Part shown: in pieces, positions 841-25,373 of the stretch
How positions within the stretch are numbered: position 1 is the first letter of the stretch
Layout: every line of letters begins with the position of its first letter
From: a virus
Direction: 5' to 3' (one strand)
Virus record (IMG/VR): IMGVR_UViG_3300001450_000001
Coordinates: 54,609 to 118,608 of that record
Length of the DNA stretch: 64,000 bases
Made by a program: the position numbers and the translations under genes
Notes under the pieces: model-generated
Told to the model about the DNA's origin: nothing
Databases searched by the model: none
The model's input: the letters and a program-made list of their open reading frames with translations, nothing else

Positions 841-3800
841 ATGGCAGGAATAAAAAATACATCATATCAAGGCTTTAATGCAGCTTCGTCTTCAAATTCT
901 GGCCCTACTTCTGGCTGGATGCTATGGAGTGGATCATTTGAACTTAAAGATTCAAGCCCAACAACAAGCTATTCAGGTGTAGGAATTGAAGCAATAGCAG
1001 GAAGCGAAAGCTACTTTAGGTTTAGAAGTGATGATGGAGGAGACTTAGATGTAAGAGCAAATAAGTTTTTTATTGGAAATCCAAAACTTCAATTTATGTC
1101 TGGTAGTGCAAGTGATATAGAGATTAGTGGTTCAGGTTTTCATATAAGGCCATTATCAAATGGTGAAACAGAAATAACTGCAAGTGCAGGTAAGATTGGA
1201 AATTGGATAATTAAGGACGGAAAGCTAAGTGGTTCAAATGCAACACTTGATGCAGTTGGTGCAGCTTTATATATGTCTAACAAAGGCCCAGACACAGATA
1301 GTAGTGCAGCATTTGATATATTAAGAGATGAATACTATATAGACTTTACACCGGATGATCAAGGAAATACAACAGACTATTTTGTTAAATTTGGACCTAA
1401 TTTTGCAGTAGATAAAAGTGGAAGCTTACATGCAAGTGGTGCAGTATTTCAAGGTACAATTACAACAAGTGCAGCAAGAATTGGTGACTGGCATGTAGGA
1501 ACAAATAATATATCTTCATCTGGTGGAAATATTGTACTGAATGGAAGTACAAGTCCCGAAATTAAAGTAACAGGTCCGTCTGCTCAACATACTGTTAAAA
1601 TGAAATATAGTAGTGATACTAATTATGGTATCATAGGAGTATCAGGTTCTGGCACCAAAGTATTTGAATTAGGCTCTACAAATCAAATAGCTGGCTGGAC
1701 ATTTACCAATGATAAGCTCTCATCAAACAACTTAGAAATAAAATCATCAGGTGAACTAAAAACTGCAGACTTTACATCAAGTAACCTTCCAGGTAGTGCA
1801 GGTAGGGGATGGAGAATAAAAGCATCAGGTGAGGCTGAATTTGAAAATGCATCAATTAGAGGAACATTAAATACAGCAGTATTTGAAAAGCAAAGTGTAA
1901 ATGTAGTAGGTGGACAATTACTTGTATCAAATGGTACAACAATCACTGGTAGTAGTATAATATTGGCAAGTACAACAACAATTCCAGTAAAGAATGCTGA
2001 TGGATTTGTAGCAAATGAATATATAATTTCTAAGGCAACTGGTAGTACAGGCTTTACTACAGAGACTATGAAAATTACAGGTGTTGATTCAACAAGTGAG
2101 CCAAACACATTAACAGTATCAAGAAATCAAGATGGTGCTGGAACAATACCTAGCATGAGTGCTGGGCAAGTATTGGCTTCTGCAGGTGTAAGTGGAAGTG
2201 GTTATATACACTTAAATGCAGCACCAAGTGATGCAGCAACACCTTATATAGATATTATAGAAAGAACAGGAAGTAATGCAGCATCAGTAAAAAGAAGGGC
2301 TAGGCTAGGTGATTTATCTGGTGTTGCAGGGGAAGGACCAGTTCCAGCAGATCCAGGATTTGGTTTATATAGTGAAAATGTTTATCTATCAGGAACAATA
2401 ACTGCAAGTGCTGGTAAGATAGGTGGATGGAATATTAACTCAAATACATTAAACGATGTAAATAATAAGGTAAAACTAGATGCATCAGGTCTATATCCAT
2501 TCTCATCTTCAGCATTCCAAGTTGACTCAGAAGGTGCAATTACTGCAAGTGCAGGAAAGATAGCTGGCTTTACAGTAGATGCTACACAAATAAAAAGTGT
2601 ACCAGACGCAGGTGGTGGTTATTTACAAATGCTTGCAGATGCCACACCTGACAACAGATTCTTAGTAACACCAGATGGAGATTTATCTGGAGGATCGGGT
2701 AATCTTGTTATGATGTTTAACTACAATTCTGGTACATGGGGTCTGCAAGGTACTAAAAATGGCGATGAATTCTTCCAATTAGGTTCCACAAATCAAATTG
2801 CAGGATGGACATTTGATAATTCAGAATTAAGACAAGCTAAAGTTACAATGAGTAGTGCAGGTAAAATTACTGTAGGTAATCCAGGGGCACAAAGAATAGA
2901 GTTAGATGGTACTAATGCAAGTATGTCATTTTTTGATGGTAGTGGAAATACTGTAATGACACTTGATGATAATATAGATGGAGTAGTACCAGGAATATCT
3001 ATGACAGAAGGAACAATAGTAATTACAGGTTCTACAGATTATGGTGCAGGTGCCACATATGCTTCACCAGGATTTAGTACAGTAATGACAAATGTAACAG
3101 CTGGAGGTGTACCTGGAATTGCTGATAGTAGGGTAGGTGCAATGTTTGCACTTAGTGATGGAGCAACTGTAAATACAGACTACACAGACTTTACAACAAC
3201 ATTTGTTGATTCATGTGGTACAAAAGGCGGAGGTGGTGGAGCTTCATGTTATGATGTAGGAGCAATTGTAGGTAGTGTTCATAACGCACAAGCAACAGTC
3301 GGAATGGTATCTGGATACGGACATGATGCATACGGAATAATGTCAAGAGCAATAGTTGCTGACCCAAGTAAAAACCAACAATATTCTTTTTTTGGTGAAC
3401 ATGGAAACCTTGTAAATTCACAAAGTGCTTGTATTGGAAGTCTTGATGGTCTTAAATCTACAATGCTTACTGTACATGAACCTACTGGTGGAGCCGATAA
3501 AGGAATCTCACTTACAGCTGGAGACTCAGATAGTATATGGGTTCACTTTATGAACTCAACAACAAGCACTACACCAAATACAGATGGTTGGAAAATTGGT
3601 ATGGACTCATCTGAGAGATTCCAAATATACAGTGAAGAACGAAATAAAACTTTATTTATGATAGATGACTCAGACGGAGAAATATATCTAGGCGATAAAG
3701 TAACTATTGGTGATGACAGTGTAGGAACAGCAACAACACTACCTATGTTTTTTGAAGATACTGATCTATCAAACGGTGCATCATGTCTTTTAGTAAAAGC

Positions 3801-4440
3801 ATCTACAAATGCTGAAGTTTCACTTATTGGAGCTATGGGACATAACCACGAGGGTGGAGGTGTTCTTTTTGTTGGACAATCATCCGATGTAGGTGGAGGT
3901 ATTGGATTTGATGGAGGTTCCAGCCACGTTTATGAAATAAATCACTGGTCTCAAGATGCTGTTGTTCTATTTAGAACAGATTATAATGATGTTACAAACC
4001 ATGATGTAATGTGGTGGCAATATAATAGTAATAATGTAAGTGTAAGGGGATCCCTCACTGACGGTGTTTCAGATAAAAGAGTAAAAACAAACGTAAAAGT
4101 TATACCTAATGCACTTGATAAGATATTAAAGGTTAGAGGAGTAACATTTGACTATAATGAAAATGCTAAGGAGATGGGGTATCTTTCTACTAGTGATTGG
4201 GAAGATAAAAAGAAAAGAGATAACCACGTAGGTGTTATTGCTCAAGAAATACAAAAAGTTTTACCAGAAGCAGTTTCTCCAGCACCAATTGATATTGATG
4301 GTAAGAAAGGTGGCTATTTAACTGTTCAATATGACAAATTAACTGCACTTCTTATTGAAGGTATTAAAGAGCAACAAGGCCAAATAGAAGAATTAAAGAA
4401 TGAAATAAAGGAGATCAAAAAATGTTTACCAGGGACATAA
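841..4440 (+). CDS. Large tail fibre/spike with C-terminal S74 intramolecular chaperone
   Basis: This 1199-residue protein is low in Cys and rich in Gly, Ser, Thr and Ala. It is built from repeated short beta modules such as ITASAGKIGGW, ITASAGKIAGF and LGSTNQIAGWTF (twice), typical of trimeric fibre shafts. The C-terminus, from about residue 1070, is an S74 peptidase/intramolecular chaperone. It has the Ser-Lys dyad motif SDKRVK (Ser1077, Lys1082), a GVIAQEIQKVLPEAV block and a final coiled coil. In the family, this domain drives trimerisation and then cuts itself off. The role is host recognition at the tail tip. It starts one base after the SET gene and overlaps the next fibre gene by 19 bases. 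Confidence 0.85.
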   Translation: MAGIKNTSYQGFNAASSSNSGPTSGWMLWSGSFELKDSSPTTSYSGVGIEAIAGSESYFRFRSDDGGDLDVRANKFFIGNPKLQFMSGSASDIEISGSGFHIRPLSNGETEITASAGKIGNWIIKDGKLSGSNATLDAVGAALYMSNKGPDTDSSAAFDILRDEYYIDFTPDDQGNTTDYFVKFGPNFAVDKSGSLHASGAVFQGTITTSAARIGDWHVGTNNISSSGGNIVLNGSTSPEIKVTGPSAQHTVKMKYSSDTNYGIIGVSGSGTKVFELGSTNQIAGWTFTNDKLSSNNLEIKSSGELKTADFTSSNLPGSAGRGWRIKASGEAEFENASIRGTLNTAVFEKQSVNVVGGQLLVSNGTTITGSSIILASTTTIPVKNADGFVANEYIISKATGSTGFTTETMKITGVDSTSEPNTLTVSRNQDGAGTIPSMSAGQVLASAGVSGSGYIHLNAAPSDAATPYIDIIERTGSNAASVKRRARLGDLSGVAGEGPVPADPGFGLYSENVYLSGTITASAGKIGGWNINSNTLNDVNNKVKLDASGLYPFSSSAFQVDSEGAITASAGKIAGFTVDATQIKSVPDAGGGYLQMLADATPDNRFLVTPDGDLSGGSGNLVMMFNYNSGTWGLQGTKNGDEFFQLGSTNQIAGWTFDNSELRQAKVTMSSAGKITVGNPGAQRIELDGTNASMSFFDGSGNTVMTLDDNIDGVVPGISMTEGTIVITGSTDYGAGATYASPGFSTVMTNVTAGGVPGIADSRVGAMFALSDGATVNTDYTDFTTTFVDSCGTKGGGGGASCYDVGAIVGSVHNAQATVGMVSGYGHDAYGIMSRAIVADPSKNQQYSFFGEHGNLVNSQSACIGSLDGLKSTMLTVHEPTGGADKGISLTAGDSDSIWVHFMNSTTSTTPNTDGWKIGMDSSERFQIYSEERNKTLFMIDDSDGEIYLGDKVTIGDDSVGTATTLPMFFEDTDLSNGASCLLVKASTNAEVSLIGAMGHNHEGGGVLFVGQSSDVGGGIGFDGGSSHVYEINHWSQDAVVLFRTDYNDVTNHDVMWWQYNSNNVSVRGSLTDGVSDKRVKTNVKVIPNALDKILKVRGVTFDYNENAKEMGYLSTSDWEDKKKRDNHVGVIAQEIQKVLPEAVSPAPIDIDGKKGGYLTVQYDKLTALLIEGIKEQQGQIEELKNEIKEIKKCLPGT

Positions 4441-5129
4441 TAATATACTCAGGGTCAATCCCAGCATCAGGAAGCTCAGAAGGCCAAAGGCCTGTATCTA
4501 GTTCAACATTTAAGCAAGTTGCAAAGTGGGAAATAGATCCAGATGACGCTTCAAGTATACAGCTTAGAGTACCAAAAGAAATATCAGGAACTGCAAATGA
4601 TAGAATAGCATTCTATGTCTCAGGTAGTGGAAAGATTGGGATAGGAACAAAAGACCCACAATCCGCATTTGATGTAAAAGACATTGGGGAAGACAAGGCA
4701 GATGCATCTAAAACAGACCTATTTAAGGTTGATAAAGATGCAGAAAAGAACCTAGGCTCATTAAAGCTAAAGAATGCAAGAACAATCGGAGGTGTATCAT
4801 TTGATGGAACAGCAAATATAAACTTACCAGGAGTTAATGCAGCAGGAAATCAAAACACAACAGGTAATGCAGATACAGCAACATTAGCAGCAGATGCAAC
4901 AACATTAGCAACAGCAAGAACAATTGGTGGTGTATCATTTGATGGTAGTGCAAATATAGATCTTAAAGGTGTTAATATAGCAGGAGACCAAGACACAACA
5001 GGAAATGCTGCAACAGCAACAGCGGCATCAGGTATTACTGTAGGCAAAACTACTCTTTCATTTACTGTTAAAGGGACAACTCTAACAATTACTGATGGTA
5101 CATCAACATGGACAATACTTGGTAAATAG
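4422..5129 (+). CDS. Tail-fibre-like protein with IGGVSFDG repeats
   Basis: This 235-residue protein starts inside the 3' end of the large fibre gene, behind an AAGGAG Shine-Dalgarno site, which implies coupled translation. Two copies of a repeat with the core ARTIGGVSFDG(T/S)AN are each followed by (I/L)N/DL-GVN-AG-Q-TTGNA. This repeat is common in distal tail fibres of T4-type and lambda-like phages. The segment between them is Ala/Thr-rich. The N-terminal part (YSGSIPASGSSEGQRPVS) recalls attachment regions of other marine phage fibres. It probably forms another part of the adhesion apparatus. There is no enzymatic motif. Confidence 0.75.
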   Translation: MFTRDIIIYSGSIPASGSSEGQRPVSSSTFKQVAKWEIDPDDASSIQLRVPKEISGTANDRIAFYVSGSGKIGIGTKDPQSAFDVKDIGEDKADASKTDLFKVDKDAEKNLGSLKLKNARTIGGVSFDGTANINLPGVNAAGNQNTTGNADTATLAADATTLATARTIGGVSFDGSANIDLKGVNIAGDQDTTGNAATATAASGITVGKTTLSFTVKGTTLTITDGTSTWTILGK

Positions 5130-8518: not shown

Positions 8519-10786
8519 ATGAAACTAGATAAATGGCTTGTAGAAAACATCCTTGCCGAGGACTCAAAGATAAAAAATATAGTTGCAATATACCCTGGTA
8601 GGTTCCAGCCTATGGGTAAGCACCATGCACAAACATATAAGTGGTTAAAGTCTAAGTTTAGTGATGCTTATGTGGCTACTAGTGGTAAGGTTAGCCTTCC
8701 AAAGTCTCCATTCTCATTTGCAGAAAAGAAAAAGATAATAAACTCTCACGGAATTAAAAATGTAGTACAAGTAAAAAGCCCTTACCAAGCTACAGAAATA
8801 TTAAAAAAGTATGACCCAGAAACTACTGCTGCAGTGTTTATGTTTGGTGCAAAAGATGCTGGTAGACTAAAAGGTAAATTTTTTCAAGAATGGAAAGGTA
8901 AGGCTGAAGTAGGATATAAAGAAGGTGCATATATAATAGTAGCACCACATGTATCATTAAAGGTCAGTGGATATGGTGAGATGTCAGGTACAACTATTAG
9001 AAAGGCTTTAGGTGACACAACAATAGATAAAAAAGAAAAAGTAAAGCTATTTAAGGGAATATTTGGCCACACAAAAAATTATAACCTTATAGTTAATAAG
9101 TTAGAGTCTTTAACTGAGATTATGGAAAACTTCTGTTATGACAAAAACATTGCAAAAATAATAAAAGAAATATCAACATTCTCTACAGCAAATAGTGCAA
9201 CAGAAGTAGATGATGGTCCTGGTGGATGGTGGGGAAATCAAAAATCATGGAAAAGGTTTGGAAGTGCATTAGAAAAAGATATAAATAGAGGAATGAAAGT
9301 GTTAGATTATATATCTGGAAAAGATGAATTTTTCTTTCACAATACACAATATCCTAAAGGCCCTACTGGTGCAGTTTCATATTGGTCAACTGGAATTAAA
9401 GGTAAGATATCTGGAACAAATGTATACCAAGATCTAGAACCAAAACCTGCATTTACTCAATACAAAAAACATATTATAAGAATAGCATCTCAGATTGGAT
9501 GGGAGTTTGTTAACTGGATAGGTGCAGAAGTAGGTAAAAAGAATAAAGATAAGACTAAGAAAAATAATGACATGCTATCAGAAAGTCTGTTAACAGAAGG
9601 TGGTGCATACGGCCACATGGCTCACCCATTTGATGATAAAGGTTTAACATTTGGTGACTTTAAAGAAATAATAAGAGTATCGCTACAAGGTAAGCTTGAT
9701 CTAAACCAAATAGCTACAGAAAAGACAGACGGACAAAATTTATTTATTAGTTGGAATAATGGACTAAGAGCTGCAAGAAATACTGGTGATGTTAAAAAGG
9801 GCGGTATGGACTCTAAGGCTGTAGCAAAAAAGTTTAAGAATAGAGGAAATATTGAAAAAGCATTTAACTATGCAATGAATGATTTGTCTAAGTCTATTGG
9901 AAGCCTAAATAATAAGCAAAGAACTAAAATATTTAATAACGGTAATAACTGGGTTAATATGGAAATCATATACCCTGCTTCCGCAAACGTAATTAACTAT
10001 GATGCACCGTACCTGCAATTCCACAATGTATTACAGTATAAAGATGGTAAGGCAATTGGTGCAGTAAATGATGGAGCAAGAATTCTTGCCGGTATGGTTG
10101 CACAAGCTAACCAAAGTGTACAAAAAAACTTTAAAGTAATAGGACCTAAAGTCCTAAAGATGAAACCTCATCAAGACTTCTCTGATAAACAATCTTACTT
10201 TATTAAAAAGCTCTCAAAGTTAATGTCAGTATACGGAATGAAAGATTCAAATACTTTTGGTGAATATCATCAAGCATGGTGGGAAAACTTTATAGATAAA
10301 AAGTTAGGCAATATTGAAAATAGAATTAAGATGGGCCTAGTTAAGAGATGGGCATTCTTTGATAAGTCATTTAGATTAAATAAGAAGACAATAGAAGATG
10401 AAAGTATCTTAGCTAAGTCAATTGAATTTGATAAGCTAAAGCATGCAGATCAAATAAAAAAGAATATGTTTGCATTTGAAACTCTATTTTTCGAGTTAGG
10501 AGCTGAGGTTCTTAAAAATGTTGATGGCTTCCTTGCTGCAAATCCAGATAAAACAGTACAAAATATGAGAAAGCAAGTTGCAGCTGCAATTAAGCATGTT
10601 AGGAAAGGTGGAGACATAAAAAATATGAATAAGCTTTCTGCCCAACTTAATAAAGTAGCTGCTATGGGTGGCTTTAAGACAATAGTACCATCAGAGGGTT
10701 TAGTATTTGTATATAAAGGAAACACATATAAACTTACAGGAGCATTTGCACCAATTAATCAAATTACAGGAATGATATACTTTTAA
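8519..10786 (+). CDS. Cytidylyltransferase (NMNAT-like) fused to a covalent nucleotidyltransferase/ligase-like domain
   Basis: This is a 755-residue two-domain protein. Residues 21-165 carry nucleotidylyltransferase signatures: YPGRFQPMGKHH (25-36), in which the usual HxGH reads GKHH, and SGTTIR (156-161), the ISxTxxR counterpart. The C-terminal part carries the motif set of covalent nucleotidyltransferases (nucleic-acid ligases and capping enzymes): I, EKTDG with Lys402; III, NMEIIYP with Glu482; IV, SEGLVF with Glu726; V, YKLTG with Lys738. A candidate prohead-protease site, SLLTE|G (Glu360), separates the halves. The N-terminus MKLDKWLVENILAE resembles leaders on neighbouring genes. Substrate is unknown; NAD synthesis or RNA repair are only possibilities. 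The gene lies among virion genes rather than in the metabolism block. Confidence 0.75.
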   Translation: MKLDKWLVENILAEDSKIKNIVAIYPGRFQPMGKHHAQTYKWLKSKFSDAYVATSGKVSLPKSPFSFAEKKKIINSHGIKNVVQVKSPYQATEILKKYDPETTAAVFMFGAKDAGRLKGKFFQEWKGKAEVGYKEGAYIIVAPHVSLKVSGYGEMSGTTIRKALGDTTIDKKEKVKLFKGIFGHTKNYNLIVNKLESLTEIMENFCYDKNIAKIIKEISTFSTANSATEVDDGPGGWWGNQKSWKRFGSALEKDINRGMKVLDYISGKDEFFFHNTQYPKGPTGAVSYWSTGIKGKISGTNVYQDLEPKPAFTQYKKHIIRIASQIGWEFVNWIGAEVGKKNKDKTKKNNDMLSESLLTEGGAYGHMAHPFDDKGLTFGDFKEIIRVSLQGKLDLNQIATEKTDGQNLFISWNNGLRAARNTGDVKKGGMDSKAVAKKFKNRGNIEKAFNYAMNDLSKSIGSLNNKQRTKIFNNGNNWVNMEIIYPASANVINYDAPYLQFHNVLQYKDGKAIGAVNDGARILAGMVAQANQSVQKNFKVIGPKVLKMKPHQDFSDKQSYFIKKLSKLMSVYGMKDSNTFGEYHQAWWENFIDKKLGNIENRIKMGLVKRWAFFDKSFRLNKKTIEDESILAKSIEFDKLKHADQIKKNMFAFETLFFELGAEVLKNVDGFLAANPDKTVQNMRKQVAAAIKHVRKGGDIKNMNKLSAQLNKVAAMGGFKTIVPSEGLVFVYKGNTYKLTGAFAPINQITGMIYF

Positions 10787-10822: not shown

Positions 10823-11446
10823 ATGATAAAGCTGAAAAAGATATTAGAACATACACCTACAGATGTAGGCTTACCGAGTGGTGATGCATGGCCTGATGGT
10901 ATATATGTTAAGGCTGGAAGAGAGAGACACATCTCACCATCTGGCTTAGGTAAGGGGATGACACAAGTTCAGTTTCCTATTGCAGATTCAATATATGACA
11001 GTGAGGAGGAGCATGCAGGTGAGCTTAGAGATGATACTCCACCACTAAGCCCAGAGCAAAGAACTTGGAGAGGTCATGGTGATAATACATACCATATTCC
11101 CCCAGAAAGCTTAAATTATGTAAGCCTATCAACGGGAGATGAAGAGGCTTGGCCGTGGGCAGGACAACTTTCACCAGAGGATGCTCCAGAAGCAGGAACT
11201 CCAGAACCTAGCGGTAAGTATAGAAGACAGCAGAATTCTCCAACAAATCTAAATGATCTTGATAAAGTAAAAAATTATCATAGAAGAATGAAAACAAATG
11301 CACAAGATGGAGTACAATCATACTCACAAAGAAATAAAGAGACCTCTGCAAGGCTAAAGAACCAGCCAAAAGATTGGTGGAACCCAAAAGGGAAGGGTGA
11401 AATGGCAGATGGTTTAATATTAGGTAAATTAAAGGATTTAATATAG
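10823..11446 (+). CDS. Unknown protein with leader-like N-terminus
   Basis: This 207-residue protein starts MIKLKKILEHTPTDVG, a lysine-rich amphipathic leader like those on several neighbours. The rest is hydrophilic, rich in Pro, Asp, Glu and Trp, and looks largely disordered. The C-terminus is basic (DWWNPKGKGEMADGLILGK). No family is recognised. It stands between the ligase-like fusion and the zinc-ribbon gene and is probably co-transcribed with them. The leader contains a candidate I-L-E protease motif. Packaging into the virion is an inference. Confidence 0.55.
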   Translation: MIKLKKILEHTPTDVGLPSGDAWPDGIYVKAGRERHISPSGLGKGMTQVQFPIADSIYDSEEEHAGELRDDTPPLSPEQRTWRGHGDNTYHIPPESLNYVSLSTGDEEAWPWAGQLSPEDAPEAGTPEPSGKYRRQQNSPTNLNDLDKVKNYHRRMKTNAQDGVQSYSQRNKETSARLKNQPKDWWNPKGKGEMADGLILGKLKDLI

Positions 11447-11450
11447 TTAT

Positions 11451-12023
11451 ATGAAAAAGTCAATAAAAGAAAGTAGAGTAAGTAGAATGAGAAACCTGGC
11501 AACAGGAAACTATAATTCAGCTACAGAAATACAAACAGGTTATAAAGCAAGAAGATTAAGAAAACAAGAAGGTGATGTCTGGACAGAAAGAGGAAAGACA
11601 TGGACAATCCAGGATGGTGTAAAGCAAAATGTTACAAAGCTAGATGCAGCAAGGCAAGTATTACGAGTACCTATTAGTTGCCCTAAGTGTAATACTAGGA
11701 TGAAGCACAAATTTGATAAAGGTGCATGGAACCTAATGAAGCACTGCTTCCATTGTCATGTAAAGTGGGAAACCAGAATGATAATTGATGGTACAAGGGA
11801 TGAGTTCTTTAAAAGAGAACACGGAAAGAATTTTGATGCATGGATTGCTGATGTACAATCTGAGTATGTTGAATTTTTATCAACAAGAGAAGGTGAAAAA
11901 TATGTCACTGAAGATGGAAGTATCGAGAAGTGGACTGGAGGTCAAGGCATAGAAGAGTTAAAATCTATATTTAATAATCGAGTAAAAGAATTAGAGGACG
12001 GAGCTAAAAAATGGCGAGACTAA
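11451..12023 (+). CDS. Zinc-ribbon protein of unknown function with leader-like N-terminus
   Basis: This 190-residue protein starts MKKSIKESRVSRMRN (I-K-E leader motif). A four-cysteine zinc ribbon is clear: Cys77-x2-Cys80 and Cys99-x2-Cys102, embedded in SCPKCNTRM and HCFHCHVKW. The region after it is helical and acidic, with several Trp. Zinc ribbons commonly bind nucleic acid or protein; nothing here identifies the partner. It starts four bases after the previous stop and overlaps the next gene by 13 bases. Confidence 0.6.
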   Translation: MKKSIKESRVSRMRNLATGNYNSATEIQTGYKARRLRKQEGDVWTERGKTWTIQDGVKQNVTKLDAARQVLRVPISCPKCNTRMKHKFDKGAWNLMKHCFHCHVKWETRMIIDGTRDEFFKREHGKNFDAWIADVQSEYVEFLSTREGEKYVTEDGSIEKWTGGQGIEELKSIFNNRVKELEDGAKKWRD

Positions 12024-12267: not shown

Positions 12268-13266
12268 ATGAATAAAAAAGAATTAAGAAGTTTAATAAAA
12301 GAAAGCTTTGTTGAGCTAATTAAAGAAGGCCTATTAACAGAGAAGTTTGCATCTAAGAATATTGCAACAATAAGTAAGAAGTTAAGAGGTAGAGATAAAG
12401 ATGTATTTCAGATGCTACATAATGCACACGGAATTGCTTGGGACCAAGTAACTGATGACTTTGCAAAGAAAGGCGCAGATACTAGTAAAGGTATAAATTT
12501 CTTTTTTATTAATAAGACAGCAAAAAATCCATACTCAAAAAATTCCTGGGATGACACTATACATGGACCTAATCTTATAGGCGTTACTATTGGAAAGAAG
12601 GTAGTATATACATCTAGAGAATCTTTCTCAACTACAAAGAGATCAGGCTACAGAAGTGGTAACTCACAAATGGGGGTTAATGCTAAGGAGATGAATAACT
12701 TTAAAAGATTTAATGAGCTAGCAGATGAAGTGTGGAATGTAGATTATAAAGGTGCTGCAAAAGACTTCTCAACATCAGGCAAGACTGCAGATAGATCAGC
12801 TGCAAAACAAGGTGCAACTGCACTAGTAGCGGCAAGCAAGGTTGCAGCAGAAAATAGAACAAGATATGAAAAAGCATTACGAGACAGATTAGCTAATACA
12901 GGACCTGGAGACCAGGTTGTAAAAATGGTTAGTAAGATCAACCAGGAATATAAAAAGTCTTTAGATGTAAAAGTTGCAATGCTTAAAAAAGGAAAGGTTG
13001 GACAAGGATGGGGTGGCTATCTAGGAACAGTATCTAGTGCATATGATGATATCATGAGGGACTTCGAATACTTTATGAGAGAAGAAAAAGCTATGGCTAT
13101 AGGCAAGAAGAAAGATATGGAAAAAGGTGGAGAAGGTGAGTGGTCTGAAGAGAAATACTATAAAAAGAGAATGCTAGAATATGCTAGAGGCATTCAGTCA
13201 AAGTATAAAAGGTTTAAGTCTGATCTTAAAAAAGTAGATATGGAAAAGTCATTCTACAATATATAG
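12268..13266 (+). CDS. Unknown basic protein with leader-like N-terminus
   Basis: This is a 332-residue protein. The first 27 residues (MNKKELRSLIKESFVELIKE, then GLLTEKF) contain two I-K-E motifs and one L-T-E motif, matching the putative prohead-protease pattern. The central region has a possible small fold (NFFFINKTAKNPYSKNSWDD; LIGVTIGKKVVYTSRESFS). The C-terminal half is strongly helical and lysine-rich. No family is recognised. It is followed after nine bases by another leader-bearing gene. A DNA-associated or capsid-internal role is conceivable from the charge and leader but unproven. Confidence 0.55.
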   Translation: MNKKELRSLIKESFVELIKEGLLTEKFASKNIATISKKLRGRDKDVFQMLHNAHGIAWDQVTDDFAKKGADTSKGINFFFINKTAKNPYSKNSWDDTIHGPNLIGVTIGKKVVYTSRESFSTTKRSGYRSGNSQMGVNAKEMNNFKRFNELADEVWNVDYKGAAKDFSTSGKTADRSAAKQGATALVAASKVAAENRTRYEKALRDRLANTGPGDQVVKMVSKINQEYKKSLDVKVAMLKKGKVGQGWGGYLGTVSSAYDDIMRDFEYFMREEKAMAIGKKKDMEKGGEGEWSEEKYYKKRMLEYARGIQSKYKRFKSDLKKVDMEKSFYNI

Positions 13267-14301: not shown

Positions 14302-15885
14302 ATGTCGAATATCAAACAATTAATAGCTAAAGAATATCAAAAGTGTGCTACTGATCCGGTGCACTTTATGCGCAAGTATTGTTATATACAGCACCCAACA
14401 AAAGGAAAGATACTATTTAATCTTTTCCCATTCCAAGAGAAGTGTATAGATGAGTTTGCAACAAATGACTATAATATTATATTAAAGTCTAGGCAGCTAG
14501 GAATATCAACACTGTCAGCTGGTATATCATTATGGCATATGATCTTTCAAGATGACTTTAACTGTCTGGTAATTGCAACTAAGCAAGATGTAGCAAAAAA
14601 CCTTGTAACGAAGGTAAGAACAATGCATCAGTATTTACCATCATGGTTAAAGAATAAGTCAATAGAAGATAATAAGCTAAGTTTAAGGTTTGCAAATGGC
14701 TCACAAATTAAGGCAATATCATCTGGCGGAGATGCTGGTAGATCAGAGGCACTTTCGCTATTAATTATTGATGAGGCTGCATTTGTTGATAGGATAGATG
14801 ATATATGGGCTTCATCTCAACAGACACTTGCAACTGGTGGTAAGGCAATAATACTTTCTACACCAAATGGTGTTGGTAATTTCTTTCATAAAACATGGGT
14901 AAAGGCAGAAGACGGCGAAAACGACTTTAATACAATTAGGCTCCACTGGTCATTGCACCCAGAGAGAGAACAAGATTGGAGAGATAAACAAGACGGATTG
15001 CTAGGACCTAAGATGGCAGCGCAAGAATGTGACTGTGACTTTATTAGCTCTGGTGCATCTGTAGTCGAACCTAAAATACTAGAATGGTATAAAGAAAACT
15101 ATGCAGAAGAGCCTACTGAAAGAAGAGGGGTTGATGGCAATTATTGGATATGGGAATACCCAGACTTTTCAAAAGATTATGTAGTAGTTGCTGATGTATC
15201 TAGAGGAGATGGAAGTGACTATTCAACATTTCATGTATTAGACATACAAGGCTTAAAGCAAGTTGCAGAATATAAAGGTCAGCCAAGCACAAAAGATTTT
15301 GGGAATATGTTAGTTACAGTAGCTACCGAATGGAATAATGCATTGCTAGTTATAGAAAACGCAAATGTTGGGTGGGCAGCAATACAGCAGGCAATAGATA
15401 GAGACTACCAAAATTTATATTATACATATAAACATGAAGGAGTTACTGACTCTGCAACACATTTAACAAAAGGATACGACTTAAAAGATAAGTCTCAGAT
15501 GGTTCCAGGATTTACAACTTCTTCGAGGACTAGACCACTTTTAGTGTCTAAGCTTGATATTTATTTTAGAGAAAAGGACATTATAGTAAGATCAAGAAGA
15601 CTCTTAGATGAGCTATCTGTATTTATTTGGAAAAATAATAGGCCAGAAGCTCAAAGTGGATATAATGATGACTTGGTAATGGCCTTCGCAATTGGACTGT
15701 TTGTAAGAGACTCAGCTCTAAAACTGAGAAACGAAGGATTGGCAATGAATAAGAATGCGCTAAGATTAATGGGCAAGACTGGTGCAGGAGGATTTAGTAA
15801 CTCAAGCCACTTAACAAGTGACCCATGGAAGATGAAGATGGGAAATAAAGGCCCAGACGAAGACTTAACTTGGTTAATAAAATAG
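14302..15885 (+). CDS. Terminase large subunit (gp17-like)
   Basis: This 527-residue protein is the ATP-driven DNA-packaging motor and nuclease of the head. The ATPase domain shows a Walker A-like motif, SRQLGIST (63-70), and Walker B, LLIIDEAAF with Asp157-Glu158, followed by a coupling motif region (ILSTPNGVGNFFH). The C-terminal nuclease domain contains acidic residues expected of the RNase H fold (VVVADVSRGDGSDYS and GYNDDLVMAF). Length is normal for T4-like large terminases. The portal follows after nine bases, as usual. No small terminase was identified in the window. Confidence 0.93.
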   Translation: MSNIKQLIAKEYQKCATDPVHFMRKYCYIQHPTKGKILFNLFPFQEKCIDEFATNDYNIILKSRQLGISTLSAGISLWHMIFQDDFNCLVIATKQDVAKNLVTKVRTMHQYLPSWLKNKSIEDNKLSLRFANGSQIKAISSGGDAGRSEALSLLIIDEAAFVDRIDDIWASSQQTLATGGKAIILSTPNGVGNFFHKTWVKAEDGENDFNTIRLHWSLHPEREQDWRDKQDGLLGPKMAAQECDCDFISSGASVVEPKILEWYKENYAEEPTERRGVDGNYWIWEYPDFSKDYVVVADVSRGDGSDYSTFHVLDIQGLKQVAEYKGQPSTKDFGNMLVTVATEWNNALLVIENANVGWAAIQQAIDRDYQNLYYTYKHEGVTDSATHLTKGYDLKDKSQMVPGFTTSSRTRPLLVSKLDIYFREKDIIVRSRRLLDELSVFIWKNNRPEAQSGYNDDLVMAFAIGLFVRDSALKLRNEGLAMNKNALRLMGKTGAGGFSNSSHLTSDPWKMKMGNKGPDEDLTWLIK

Positions 15886-19096: not shown

Positions 19097-19225
19097 ATGA
19101 AAAGGTCAAAAAAAATAATTAAAGAAGAGCTTACTGAACAACAAGTAAGAGATATAATTAGGCAAGAGATTGCTAAAGTATTTTTTGACTTATACAGAAA
19201 AAGACAATCGTGGACAAAAGCATGA
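19097..19225 (+). CDS. Small 42-residue protein with leader-like sequence
   Basis: The gene runs from ATG 19097 to TGA 19223-19225. The product starts MKRSKKIIKEELTEQQVRD and continues IIRQEIAKVFFDLYRKRQSW. Its first half matches the leader pattern seen on larger proteins in the window, with I-K-E and L-T-E motifs. Its last codons overlap the protease start (ATGA), so translation is probably coupled. I associate similar short proteins with the same site in marine T4-like phages. It could be a protease cofactor or a small core component. No function can be shown. Confidence 0.6.
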   Translation: MKRSKKIIKEELTEQQVRDIIRQEIAKVFFDLYRKRQSWTKA

Positions 19226-19887
19226 AACAAATATTAATAGACACAATACCATTCCAGATATCAAGACAGCAAATAGCTGAGTCTGAACAAAAGAATAATG
19301 GAAAGATTATAGTACAAGGTGTGCTACAAAGATCTGGAGCAAAAAATCAAAATGGAAGAATTTACCCTAAGGAGGTACTAATGAGGGAGGCAAATAAATA
19401 TAATGCTTCTCAAATTAAAGAGAGAAGAGCTCTAGGTGAATTAGATCACCCAGAATCTTCAGTAGTAAACCTTCAAAATGTGTCACATAATATTAGTAAG
19501 ATATGGTGGGAAGGTGATGATTTAATGGGTAAGGTTGAGGTGCTAAGTACACCATCTGGAAATATATTAAAAGAGCTACTTAAGTGCGATATTAAATTAG
19601 GTATATCATCTAGAGGCTTAGGTTCTGTAAATAATGAAATAAGTGAAGATACAGGAGAGGAAACTTTAATTGTACAAGATGACTTTGAATTGGTATGTTG
19701 GGACTTTGTTTCTAATCCATCAACTCACGGAGCATTTATGCACCCAACAAGTAAAATACCAGGTGTAAATGAGTCATATTCTCCAGTAGCTAAAAAAGCA
19801 AACAAATATGAGAAAGTAGAAAACATAATATCAGAAATGTTATGCGAACTAACTTGTAAGTGTTCATTGCCGAGAAAAAGAAAATGA
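19222..19887 (+). CDS. Prohead protease (gp21-like)
   Basis: This 221-residue serine protease cuts scaffold and capsid proteins during head maturation. Evidence is the N-terminal IIVQGVLQRSGAKNQNGRIY strand region, the catalytic His in GELDHPESS and the catalytic Ser in KLGISSRGLGS, the order seen in T4 gp21-type herpesvirus-fold proteases. ATG 19222 overlaps the previous stop; an in-frame GTG at 19210 is less likely. The N-terminal QQIAE|S sequence fits self-processing. Scaffold and capsid genes follow downstream. The C-terminus ends in a Cys/Lys-rich tail (CKCSLPRKRK). Confidence 0.88.
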   Translation: MKQILIDTIPFQISRQQIAESEQKNNGKIIVQGVLQRSGAKNQNGRIYPKEVLMREANKYNASQIKERRALGELDHPESSVVNLQNVSHNISKIWWEGDDLMGKVEVLSTPSGNILKELLKCDIKLGISSRGLGSVNNEISEDTGEETLIVQDDFELVCWDFVSNPSTHGAFMHPTSKIPGVNESYSPVAKKANKYEKVENIISEMLCELTCKCSLPRKRK

Positions 19888-23735: not shown

Positions 23736-25373
23736 ATGTCAAACGTAAGTAATTTACTTAACGACGCTCAAAATACTTATAGGCAACAAATTGCTGAAAC
23801 TAAAGCTTATGTAAATAAGTGGGAAAAAACTGGTCTTTTAGAAGGAATCGATGCAGAGTATGAAAAACATAATACTGCTATTCTTTTAGAAAATCAAGCA
23901 AGACAATTGATCCAAGAAGCTAATGCTACCGGTACAGGTGGTAGTAAAGAAGAATGGTCAGGAGTTGCACTTCCACTAGTAAGAAGAATTTTCGGTGAAA
24001 TTGCTGCAAAAGATTTTGTAAGCGTACAACCAATGAATCTACCATCAGGTCTAGTATTTTTCCTAGACTTCAAATATGGGTCTGATTCAGGCGTAGGCGG
24101 AACTGCCGCTAACACTCACACAGTAGCTACTGGTGATAAAATAATGGGTACTACAGATACCAAAAATGTTGATCCTTCTGGAGGCCTTTATGGTTCTGGA
24201 AAGTTCGGATATTCAACTAACAGATCTGCATCTACAGGTGTAGCTGACGCTTTAACTGCAGCATCTACTGCTTCTTTAGCTGATGTTAACTTTGATTCTA
24301 GTTTAGAAACTTTAGTTACTGCTAAGAGATTAAAGAAGGTTGTAATTACAACTGAAAACACTAATCTTGATGAACAGGCTGCACAAGCTTTCCAAGTTTC
24401 TGCATCTGACTTTAAAGTATATCCACAGTTTACTACTGCTACTGCTGCAGGTGTTGTAACTTTCATCGGTGAAACTGCTGCTGAACTACCAACATGGGCT
24501 GATACTTTTGGATTAGGTCAAATCAAGACTTCATTTGTAATCAAGAATGCTAATGACCAGTCAAGAGGTGATTTTGAGGATAAAGATCCTACATCTTATG
24601 CTGCTGGAACTGCAACAGACTTGAATATTCCTGAAGTAAATGTTGAATTAAGATCTGAGGCAATTGTAGCTAAGACAAGAAAGTTAAAAGTAATCTGGAC
24701 TCCAGAATTTGCTCAAGACTTAAATGCTTATCACTCAATTGATGCTGAGGCTGAATTAACATCTATGTTATCTGAATATATTTCTATGGAAATAGATTTA
24801 GAAATCTTAGGTATGTTATCTGCAAATGCAAACACAACTGATTCATGGCATGCAGACGGACAGGCATTAAATGCTGCTGGAACTGCATTTTCTGCTGTTG
24901 GTTCACAATATGCTTATCAACAAACTTCATGGTTTGCAACATTAGGTACAAAAGTACAAAAAGTAAGTAACAAAATTCATGCAAAAACAATGCGTGGTGG
25001 TGCTAACTTCTTAGTATGTGGACCTGAGGTTTCTACTGTGTTAGAATCTATTTCTGGATTCGGTGTTGATACAGATGGTGCTCAACAATCATTTGCAATG
25101 GGCGTAACTAAAATCGGTAGCTTAGCTAACAGATTTACAGTTTACAAAAACCCTTACATGCAATCAAATGAGATTATTATGGGATTCCGTGGTACTCAAT
25201 TCTTGGAAACTGGTGCAGTTTATGCTCCTTATATTCCATTAATTATGACTCCACTAGTATACGATCCAACTAACTTTACTCCAAGAAAAGGTGTAATGAC
25301 TAGGTATGCTAAGAAAGTTGTAAGACCAGAATTCTACGGTAAGATTAATGTATCTGGATTAAACACTATTTAA
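23736..25373 (+). CDS. Major capsid protein (gp23-like)
   Basis: This 545-residue HK97-fold capsid protein has a strong AGGAGA site and uses codons typical of a highly expressed gene. The N-terminal about 61 residues form a helical delta-like region ending QLIQE|ANATGTGG (Glu61). This matches the (I/L)-x-E rule of T4-type prohead proteases and lies close to the position where T4 gp23 loses its first 65 residues. The mature part has the expected LVRRIFGEIAAKDFVSVQPM start and the C-terminal PYIPLIMTPLVYDPTNFTPR block. A strong terminator follows. Confidence 0.92.
   Translation: MSNVSNLLNDAQNTYRQQIAETKAYVNKWEKTGLLEGIDAEYEKHNTAILLENQARQLIQEANATGTGGSKEEWSGVALPLVRRIFGEIAAKDFVSVQPMNLPSGLVFFLDFKYGSDSGVGGTAANTHTVATGDKIMGTTDTKNVDPSGGLYGSGKFGYSTNRSASTGVADALTAASTASLADVNFDSSLETLVTAKRLKKVVITTENTNLDEQAAQAFQVSASDFKVYPQFTTATAAGVVTFIGETAAELPTWADTFGLGQIKTSFVIKNANDQSRGDFEDKDPTSYAAGTATDLNIPEVNVELRSEAIVAKTRKLKVIWTPEFAQDLNAYHSIDAEAELTSMLSEYISMEIDLEILGMLSANANTTDSWHADGQALNAAGTAFSAVGSQYAYQQTSWFATLGTKVQKVSNKIHAKTMRGGANFLVCGPEVSTVLESISGFGVDTDGAQQSFAMGVTKIGSLANRFTVYKNPYMQSNEIIMGFRGTQFLETGAVYAPYIPLIMTPLVYDPTNFTPRKGVMTRYAKKVVRPEFYGKINVSGLNTI

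Follow-up and report, generated by a model that had tools for sequence, protein, structure and literature searches.

A conserved phage gene joining an NMNAT-type domain to an RNA-ligase-like domain across a candidate prohead protease site

Within the window, a 64,000-nucleotide portion of a 145,441-base virus record, an uncharacterised gene joins an NMNAT-type adenylyltransferase domain to an RNA-ligase-like domain. The gene is real and conserved; its parts are of known kinds, and their combination with an internal site of the head-protease type is new. We would give about an even chance to the reading of its product as a late precursor that is directed to the head and comprises two enzymes, which would be delivered with the phage DNA for RNA repair and NAD-linked chemistry. 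The pairing of the two domains might be explained either by such a delivered kit or by a ligation cycle coupled directly to NAD/NMN. Published surveys cover RNA repair and NAD salvage by phages as well as polyvalent effectors (PMC7824862, PMC9503650, PMC5512222); in the accessible portions of these surveys, an NMNAT/RNA-ligase pair is not described.

The fusion gene, its surroundings and its relatives

The open reading frame at 8519-10786 (plus strand) begins with ATG, has zero internal stops and is intact (Table 1). On one side of it lie tail-fibre genes (841-5129), and on the other the T4-type terminase (14302), portal, gp21 and gp23 genes, which agrees with the first-pass annotation in placing it among virion genes. 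The motifs read in that annotation (GRFQPMGKHH, SGTTIR, LLTE|G, K402, E482, E726 and K738) were all found at the residues given there.

Table 1. Features of the fusion gene and of related virion genes in the window
Feature	Position	Strand	Remark
Coding sequence, 755 aa	8519..10786	+	leader, NMNAT-like domain, middle region, leader-like linker, RNA-ligase-like domain
N-terminal leader MKLDKWLVENILAE	8519..8560	+	capsid-targeting-like; family consensus MSLGxWLAxQILxE
NMNAT-type adenylyltransferase domain, residues 20-200	8576..9118	+	
HIGH-type motif GRFQPMGKHH, residues 27-36	8597..8626	+	
SGTTIR motif, residues 156-161	8984..9001	+	
Middle region, residues 205-335	9131..9523	+	DDGP motif; low model confidence
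Putative gp21-type cleavage site LLTE|G, residues 357-361	9587..9601	+	
RNA-ligase-like covalent nucleotidyltransferase domain (predicted), residues 361-755	9599..10783	+	
Motif I EKTDG (Lys402)	9719..9733	+	invariant; pairs unforced with T4 Rnl1 K99
Motif III NMEIIYPASANVINY (Glu482, Pro486, Tyr494; E482 in NMEIIYP)	9956..10000	+	T4 Rnl1 E159, P163 and Y171 stand at identical spacing
Motif IV SEGLV (Glu726)	10691..10705	+	invariant
Motif V YKLTG (Lys738)	10727..10741	+	invariant
Terminase large subunit	14302..15885	+	syntenic anchor
gp21-type prohead core protease (Peptidase_S77)	19210..19887	+	presumed cutter; Pfam E=5.6e-29
gp23 major capsid protein	23736..25373	+	own candidate site TGLLE|GID, residue 36

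Scanning viral contigs with the whole protein yielded 119 relatives, and a further scan with the C-domain of a Microcystis phage yielded 304. Of 99 complete ORFs, 85 have the terminase at their locus. In an alignment of 84 homologues, residues G27, R28, F29, P31, H36, S156, G157, T158 and R161 of the N-domain and K402, R420, E482, E726 and K738 of the C-domain are invariant wherever covered, and the ligase residue set is still kept in a 43-sequence alignment down to 25% identity, which extends to contigs assigned to rumen Firmicutes. Such invariance of the catalytic residues of both domains across the homologues examined argues against a structural or scaffold protein of the virion with two catalytically dead domains, a reading that we regard as most improbable, although the position among virion genes and the low-confidence, possibly unstructured middle region would agree with it.

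A gene with CPKC...CFHC zinc-ribbon-like motifs (11451-12023 of the window) adjoins the fusion gene in 91 of 99 loci. Short leader-like N-termini were seen in the neighbour genes at 10823, 11451, 12268, 13276 and 21053, with LLTE|K in that at 12268; judging from these N-termini, the neighbours may together specify a group of proteins destined for the head. A search for T4-like late promoters (TATAAATA) gave 6 matches against about 11 expected and was uninformative.

The two domains

The N-terminal part almost certainly has the NMNAT-type fold that the first-pass annotation ascribed to it. Its model is confident over residues 21-200, and the best matches in a fold search of the PDB were PPAT, NMNAT and NadM (prob 1.00), that is, phosphopantetheine and nicotinamide/nicotinate mononucleotide adenylyltransferases, NadM included. 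The Pfam family CTP_transf_like matches the window protein weakly (E=0.008) and the homologue L082 clearly (E=1.5e-8). Both motifs of NMN adenylyltransferases (GxFxPxxxxH and SxTxxR) are present together with the fold, but the curated NMNAT cut-off is missed: the NCBIfam matches, mainly to NMN or nicotinate-nucleotide adenylyltransferases, all fall under their curated cut-offs, and we therefore do not assign NMN specificity. In most members, the HIGH motif is a GxHH variant with the first His replaced by Gly, and some homologues (L082, L085 and L173) retain the canonical HxGH. Thus, the N-domain has its fold and motifs in common with the NMN adenylyltransferases NadM and NadR of phages, and differs from them in the variant HIGH motif, in having neither a Nudix nor a NadR kinase partner, and in being fused to a ligase-like domain.

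As for the C-terminal part, sequence and model taken together indicate that it is very probably a covalent nucleotidyltransferase, and RNA-ligase function is a likely prediction. When its AlphaFold2 model (pLDDT 79.7) was compared with the PDB by Foldseek, the top eight matches were all RNA ligases (T4 Rnl1 in three entries, a fungal tRNA ligase, T4 Rnl2 and relatives), each of them weak (E 0.011-0.6, TM ~0.2), and the remainder was noise. In the BFVD ranking, direct relatives were followed by RNA ligases, among which is the enzyme of Rhodothermus phage RM378, and a protein of cyanophage S-PM2 was also matched. Since RNA ligases top these lists, the readings as a capping enzyme or a DNA ligase were set aside. 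The 'nucleic-acid end or capping chemistry' proposed earlier is accordingly narrowed: the fold matches speak for a Rnl1-like RNA-ligase type, while capping enzymes gave zero matches. The more general claim of a covalent nucleotidyltransferase is supported, as structure prediction and fold search did not place this part outside that superfamily and K402 is not lost in any homologue covering the position.

A profile comparison of the C-domain with the T4 Rnl1 family scored 26.0 at a low absolute hhalign probability, pairing K402 with K99 and E482 with E159 unguided; with DUF6267, a cyanophage family, it scored 24.6, with the HxxH and KxDG motifs aligned. Controls (24 column shuffles, two reversals and six unrelated families) peaked at 21.5. 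T4 Rnl1 (RnlA, gp63) and the fungal tRNA ligase, the best fold-search matches, share with the C-domain the KxDG of motif I, the EG of motif IV and the Lys of motif V, as well as the Glu of motif III with Pro at +4 and Tyr at +12, the pattern E-x3-P-x7-Y being spaced identically in T4 Rnl1. Unlike T4 Rnl1, however, the C-domain has a mostly helical insert of about 200 residues between motifs III and IV in place of a C-terminal domain, and its motif V reads KxT, with the first Lys (K738) invariant and the second Lys of the T4 KxK replaced by Thr. An extra HxxHPF upstream of motif I, the fusion to an NMNAT-type domain and the late, virion-region setting of the gene further set the window protein apart.

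Direct family matching of the window protein returned the weak CTP_transf_like match and nothing for the C-domain. When the PDB was searched with a C-domain profile, the result was noise, with zero sequence-level matches to solved structures. The Rnl1 model (PF09511) was unmatched in the phage record, so the C-domain is to be taken as a distant relative and not as a member of Rnl1. The DUF6267 model (PF19782) was likewise unmatched in that record, where controls matched nowhere either, and hmmscan of the window protein was blank for it. Plain membership of the window protein in Rnl1 or in DUF6267 was rejected on these family-model tests.

Leader, linker site and possible delivery in the head

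In T4, propeptides steer proteins into the head and are then removed by gp21 (PMC9026906). The marks of such head-targeted proteins, an N-terminal leader, an (L/I)xE site and a gp21 protease in the genome, are present here. A second site lies inside the protein: of 137 unique homologues, 129 have (L/I)xE immediately ahead of the GG at which the ligase domain begins. The protease-like site noticed between the two parts in the first-pass annotation is conserved. The eight other homologues are without [LI]xE at the linker, four to five of them reading LLLM, LLLC or similar, and linker cleavage would therefore not be universal. For 22 of the 51 unique pairs, that of the window among them, the linker is the best match to the leader elsewhere in the protein (about 480-760 positions scanned); in the homologue L020, for instance, SLGNWLADQIISE at the N-terminus is echoed by SLGQWLANQILLVE before GG. 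A linker that resembles a copy of the leader suggests the fusion of two leader-bearing genes, and two standalone ligases (L083 and L088) have a leader of their own ending in ILE|GG. The N-terminal site of the window protein has Asp at P1'.

Going by the conserved site, the linker is probably cut by the prohead protease, and we consider packaging of the fusion protein into the head only slightly less probable. The T4 internal head proteins (IPI-III and Alt) offer a close likeness: their short N-terminal leaders end in a Glu site and, as here, the genome encodes a gp21-type protease. The window protein differs in having a second, leader-like candidate site internally. We found no virion proteomics for any carrier phage, and a literature search on one carrier, Microcystis phage Mel-JY01, found nothing.

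In the scenario that we infer, the capsid-targeting-like leader would take the precursor into the prohead core, where gp21 would cut after the leader and again after LLTE-360. Two products would result: an NMNAT-type adenylyltransferase that retains the middle region, and an RNA-ligase-like enzyme of 395 residues forming lysyl-AMP on K402. Both would then be ejected along with the DNA. The ligase would seal RNA, most likely tRNAs cleaved by anticodon nucleases of the host, while early in infection the NMNAT-like enzyme would make a dinucleotide, of which NAD is the likeliest. If this is true, the virion carries RNA-repair and NAD-linked enzymes that are ready ahead of any phage gene expression and that counter defences which cut tRNA or drain NAD. 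Against this scenario we counted the lack of a sequence match between the C-domain and solved structures, the weak Foldseek E and TM values, the low hhalign probability, the KxT of motif V, the missing C-terminal domain, the HIGH motif without its first His, the non-universal linker site and the Asp at P1'.

Relatives of up to 2412 aa carry extra modules upstream of the ligase domain (L090, L092, L107, L143, L155 and L106), among them kinase, CCA-adding, HD, ParB-like, Zn-protease and PAP2-like modules in one ORF, the last assigned from a reading of the L106 sequence. A P-loop kinase (AAA_33/Zeta-like) occurs in 19 complete ORFs of the wider family, CCA-adding head and RNA-binding domains occur in L090 and L092 (E 6.5e-30 and 5.2e-31), and in L082 (4581-7325) a ParB-like domain (E=4e-4) precedes the NMNAT and ligase parts. 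The company of CCA-adding enzyme, kinase and ligase points to tRNA repair. It also bears on a very unlikely alternative, in which an A(5')pp(5')X compound made by the NMNAT-like domain supplies pX, which the Rnl1-like domain attaches to the 3' ends of RNA, so that host RNA is marked or blocked. Dinucleoside pyrophosphates can serve T4 Rnl1 as donors, and both domains make or use one type of linkage, but the relatives bear repair-type enzymes such as the CCA-adding one and not obviously RNA-damaging ones.

The same modules recall polyvalent proteins (Iyer et al. 2017, PMC5512222), which unite several enzymes in one polypeptide and are predicted to be delivered alongside phage DNA, and one might suppose that the two domains hit different host targets, NAD supply and RNA or protein modification, with no common pathway. 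We consider this improbable: NMNAT and ligase are near-constant partners (96 of 98 complete ORFs or neighbours), whereas the other modules vary. The window protein has candidate gp21-type sites and not the zincin processing of polyvalent proteins, and no NMNAT/RNA-ligase combination was found among those described in the accessible portion of that paper. A short module, VGDTILxGxFKNKxxxVKSI...INGRxAxxFR, recurs at N-termini and in linkers of the family (L053 linker, L143 and L111 N-termini, L086).

Recurrence of the pair and DUF6267 of cyanophages

An NMNAT is encoded in the same ORF as the C-domain in 91 of 98 complete cases and by a nearby gene in five, and is absent in two. An apparent C-before-N order in five ORFs of the window family was rejected as an artefact of spurious low-scoring second matches. 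In the huge phage LR756500, a standalone ligase gene is followed after 22 bases by an NMNAT-bearing ORF.

A comparable pair was found in T4-like cyanophages, where DUF6267 has a 'cytitidyltransferase' neighbour (T4-GC 71 and 190). In S-PM2 (L213:5486-7258), a single protein carries DUF6267 (E=1.6e-111) and CTP_transf_like in an order opposite to that of the window protein, and in P-SSM4, S-SSM4 and S-CAM4, the DUF6267 and NMNAT-like genes are adjacent and overlapping. DUF6267 has ligase-type motifs of its own (KxDG, QGD, EG and a motif-V-like Lys; S-PM2 L213 and L294, L295, L298) and an early HxxH(P/L)xD stretch resembling the HxxHP that is invariant upstream of motif I in the window family. 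By these motifs, this family of unknown function looks RNA-ligase-related; a literature search on it found nothing. Its similarity to the window C-domain is distant, seen between profiles and lying under Pfam detection. In contrast to the window protein, the cyanophage pair has reversed order where fused, lies in the replication region away from virion genes, and shows neither leader nor cut site. The pairing thus does not require a virion role. The idea that DUF6267 is always paired with an NMNAT was rejected, since the short freshwater-phage DUF6267 proteins have zero NMNAT within 2.5 kb; the pairing is common, not universal.

Repeated linkage in both orders, non-virion cyanophage loci included, suggests direct chemical coupling and not merely a shared ride in the virion, and the cyanophage cases favour some such coupling. 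In its plainest form, the ligase would take AMP from NAD and free NMN, from which, with ATP, the NMNAT-like domain would remake NAD, so that ligation could keep running where NAD or ATP pools are disturbed. The recurrence of the pair as an N-to-C fusion (window), a reverse fusion (S-PM2) and adjacent genes (P-SSM4, S-SSM4, LR756500), in virion as well as replication regions, would fit this cycle. NAD-dependent DNA ligases have an NMN-binding Ia domain ahead of motif I, and HxxHP occupies the corresponding place here. However, NAD-dependent ligases are absent among the listed fold-search matches, the idea that the HxxH motif binds NMN is guesswork, and the freshwater DUF6267 proteins do without a nearby NMNAT; we hold this cycle to be unlikely.

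Delivery of two separate enzymes for RNA repair and NAD-linked chemistry remains our preferred reading. It is tempting, if doubtful, to combine it with coupling: an NMNAT-like enzyme and an unrecognised RNA-ligase-like family, comprising the C-domain and DUF6267, may share an NAD/NMN reaction cycle, such as an NAD-dependent RNA ligation in which the protein itself recycles the NMN. In this lineage, the pair would travel in the head as a precursor, to be split in two by the prohead protease. The repeated pairing would in that case point to a connection of a new kind between NAD metabolism and RNA sealing. The present findings offer a testable function for a protein family present in hundreds of marine viral contigs and for DUF6267 of cyanophages. 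Finally, the virus record holds a second CTP_transf_like match (E=2.7e-4), outside the window, in a 119-aa frame at 123499-123633.
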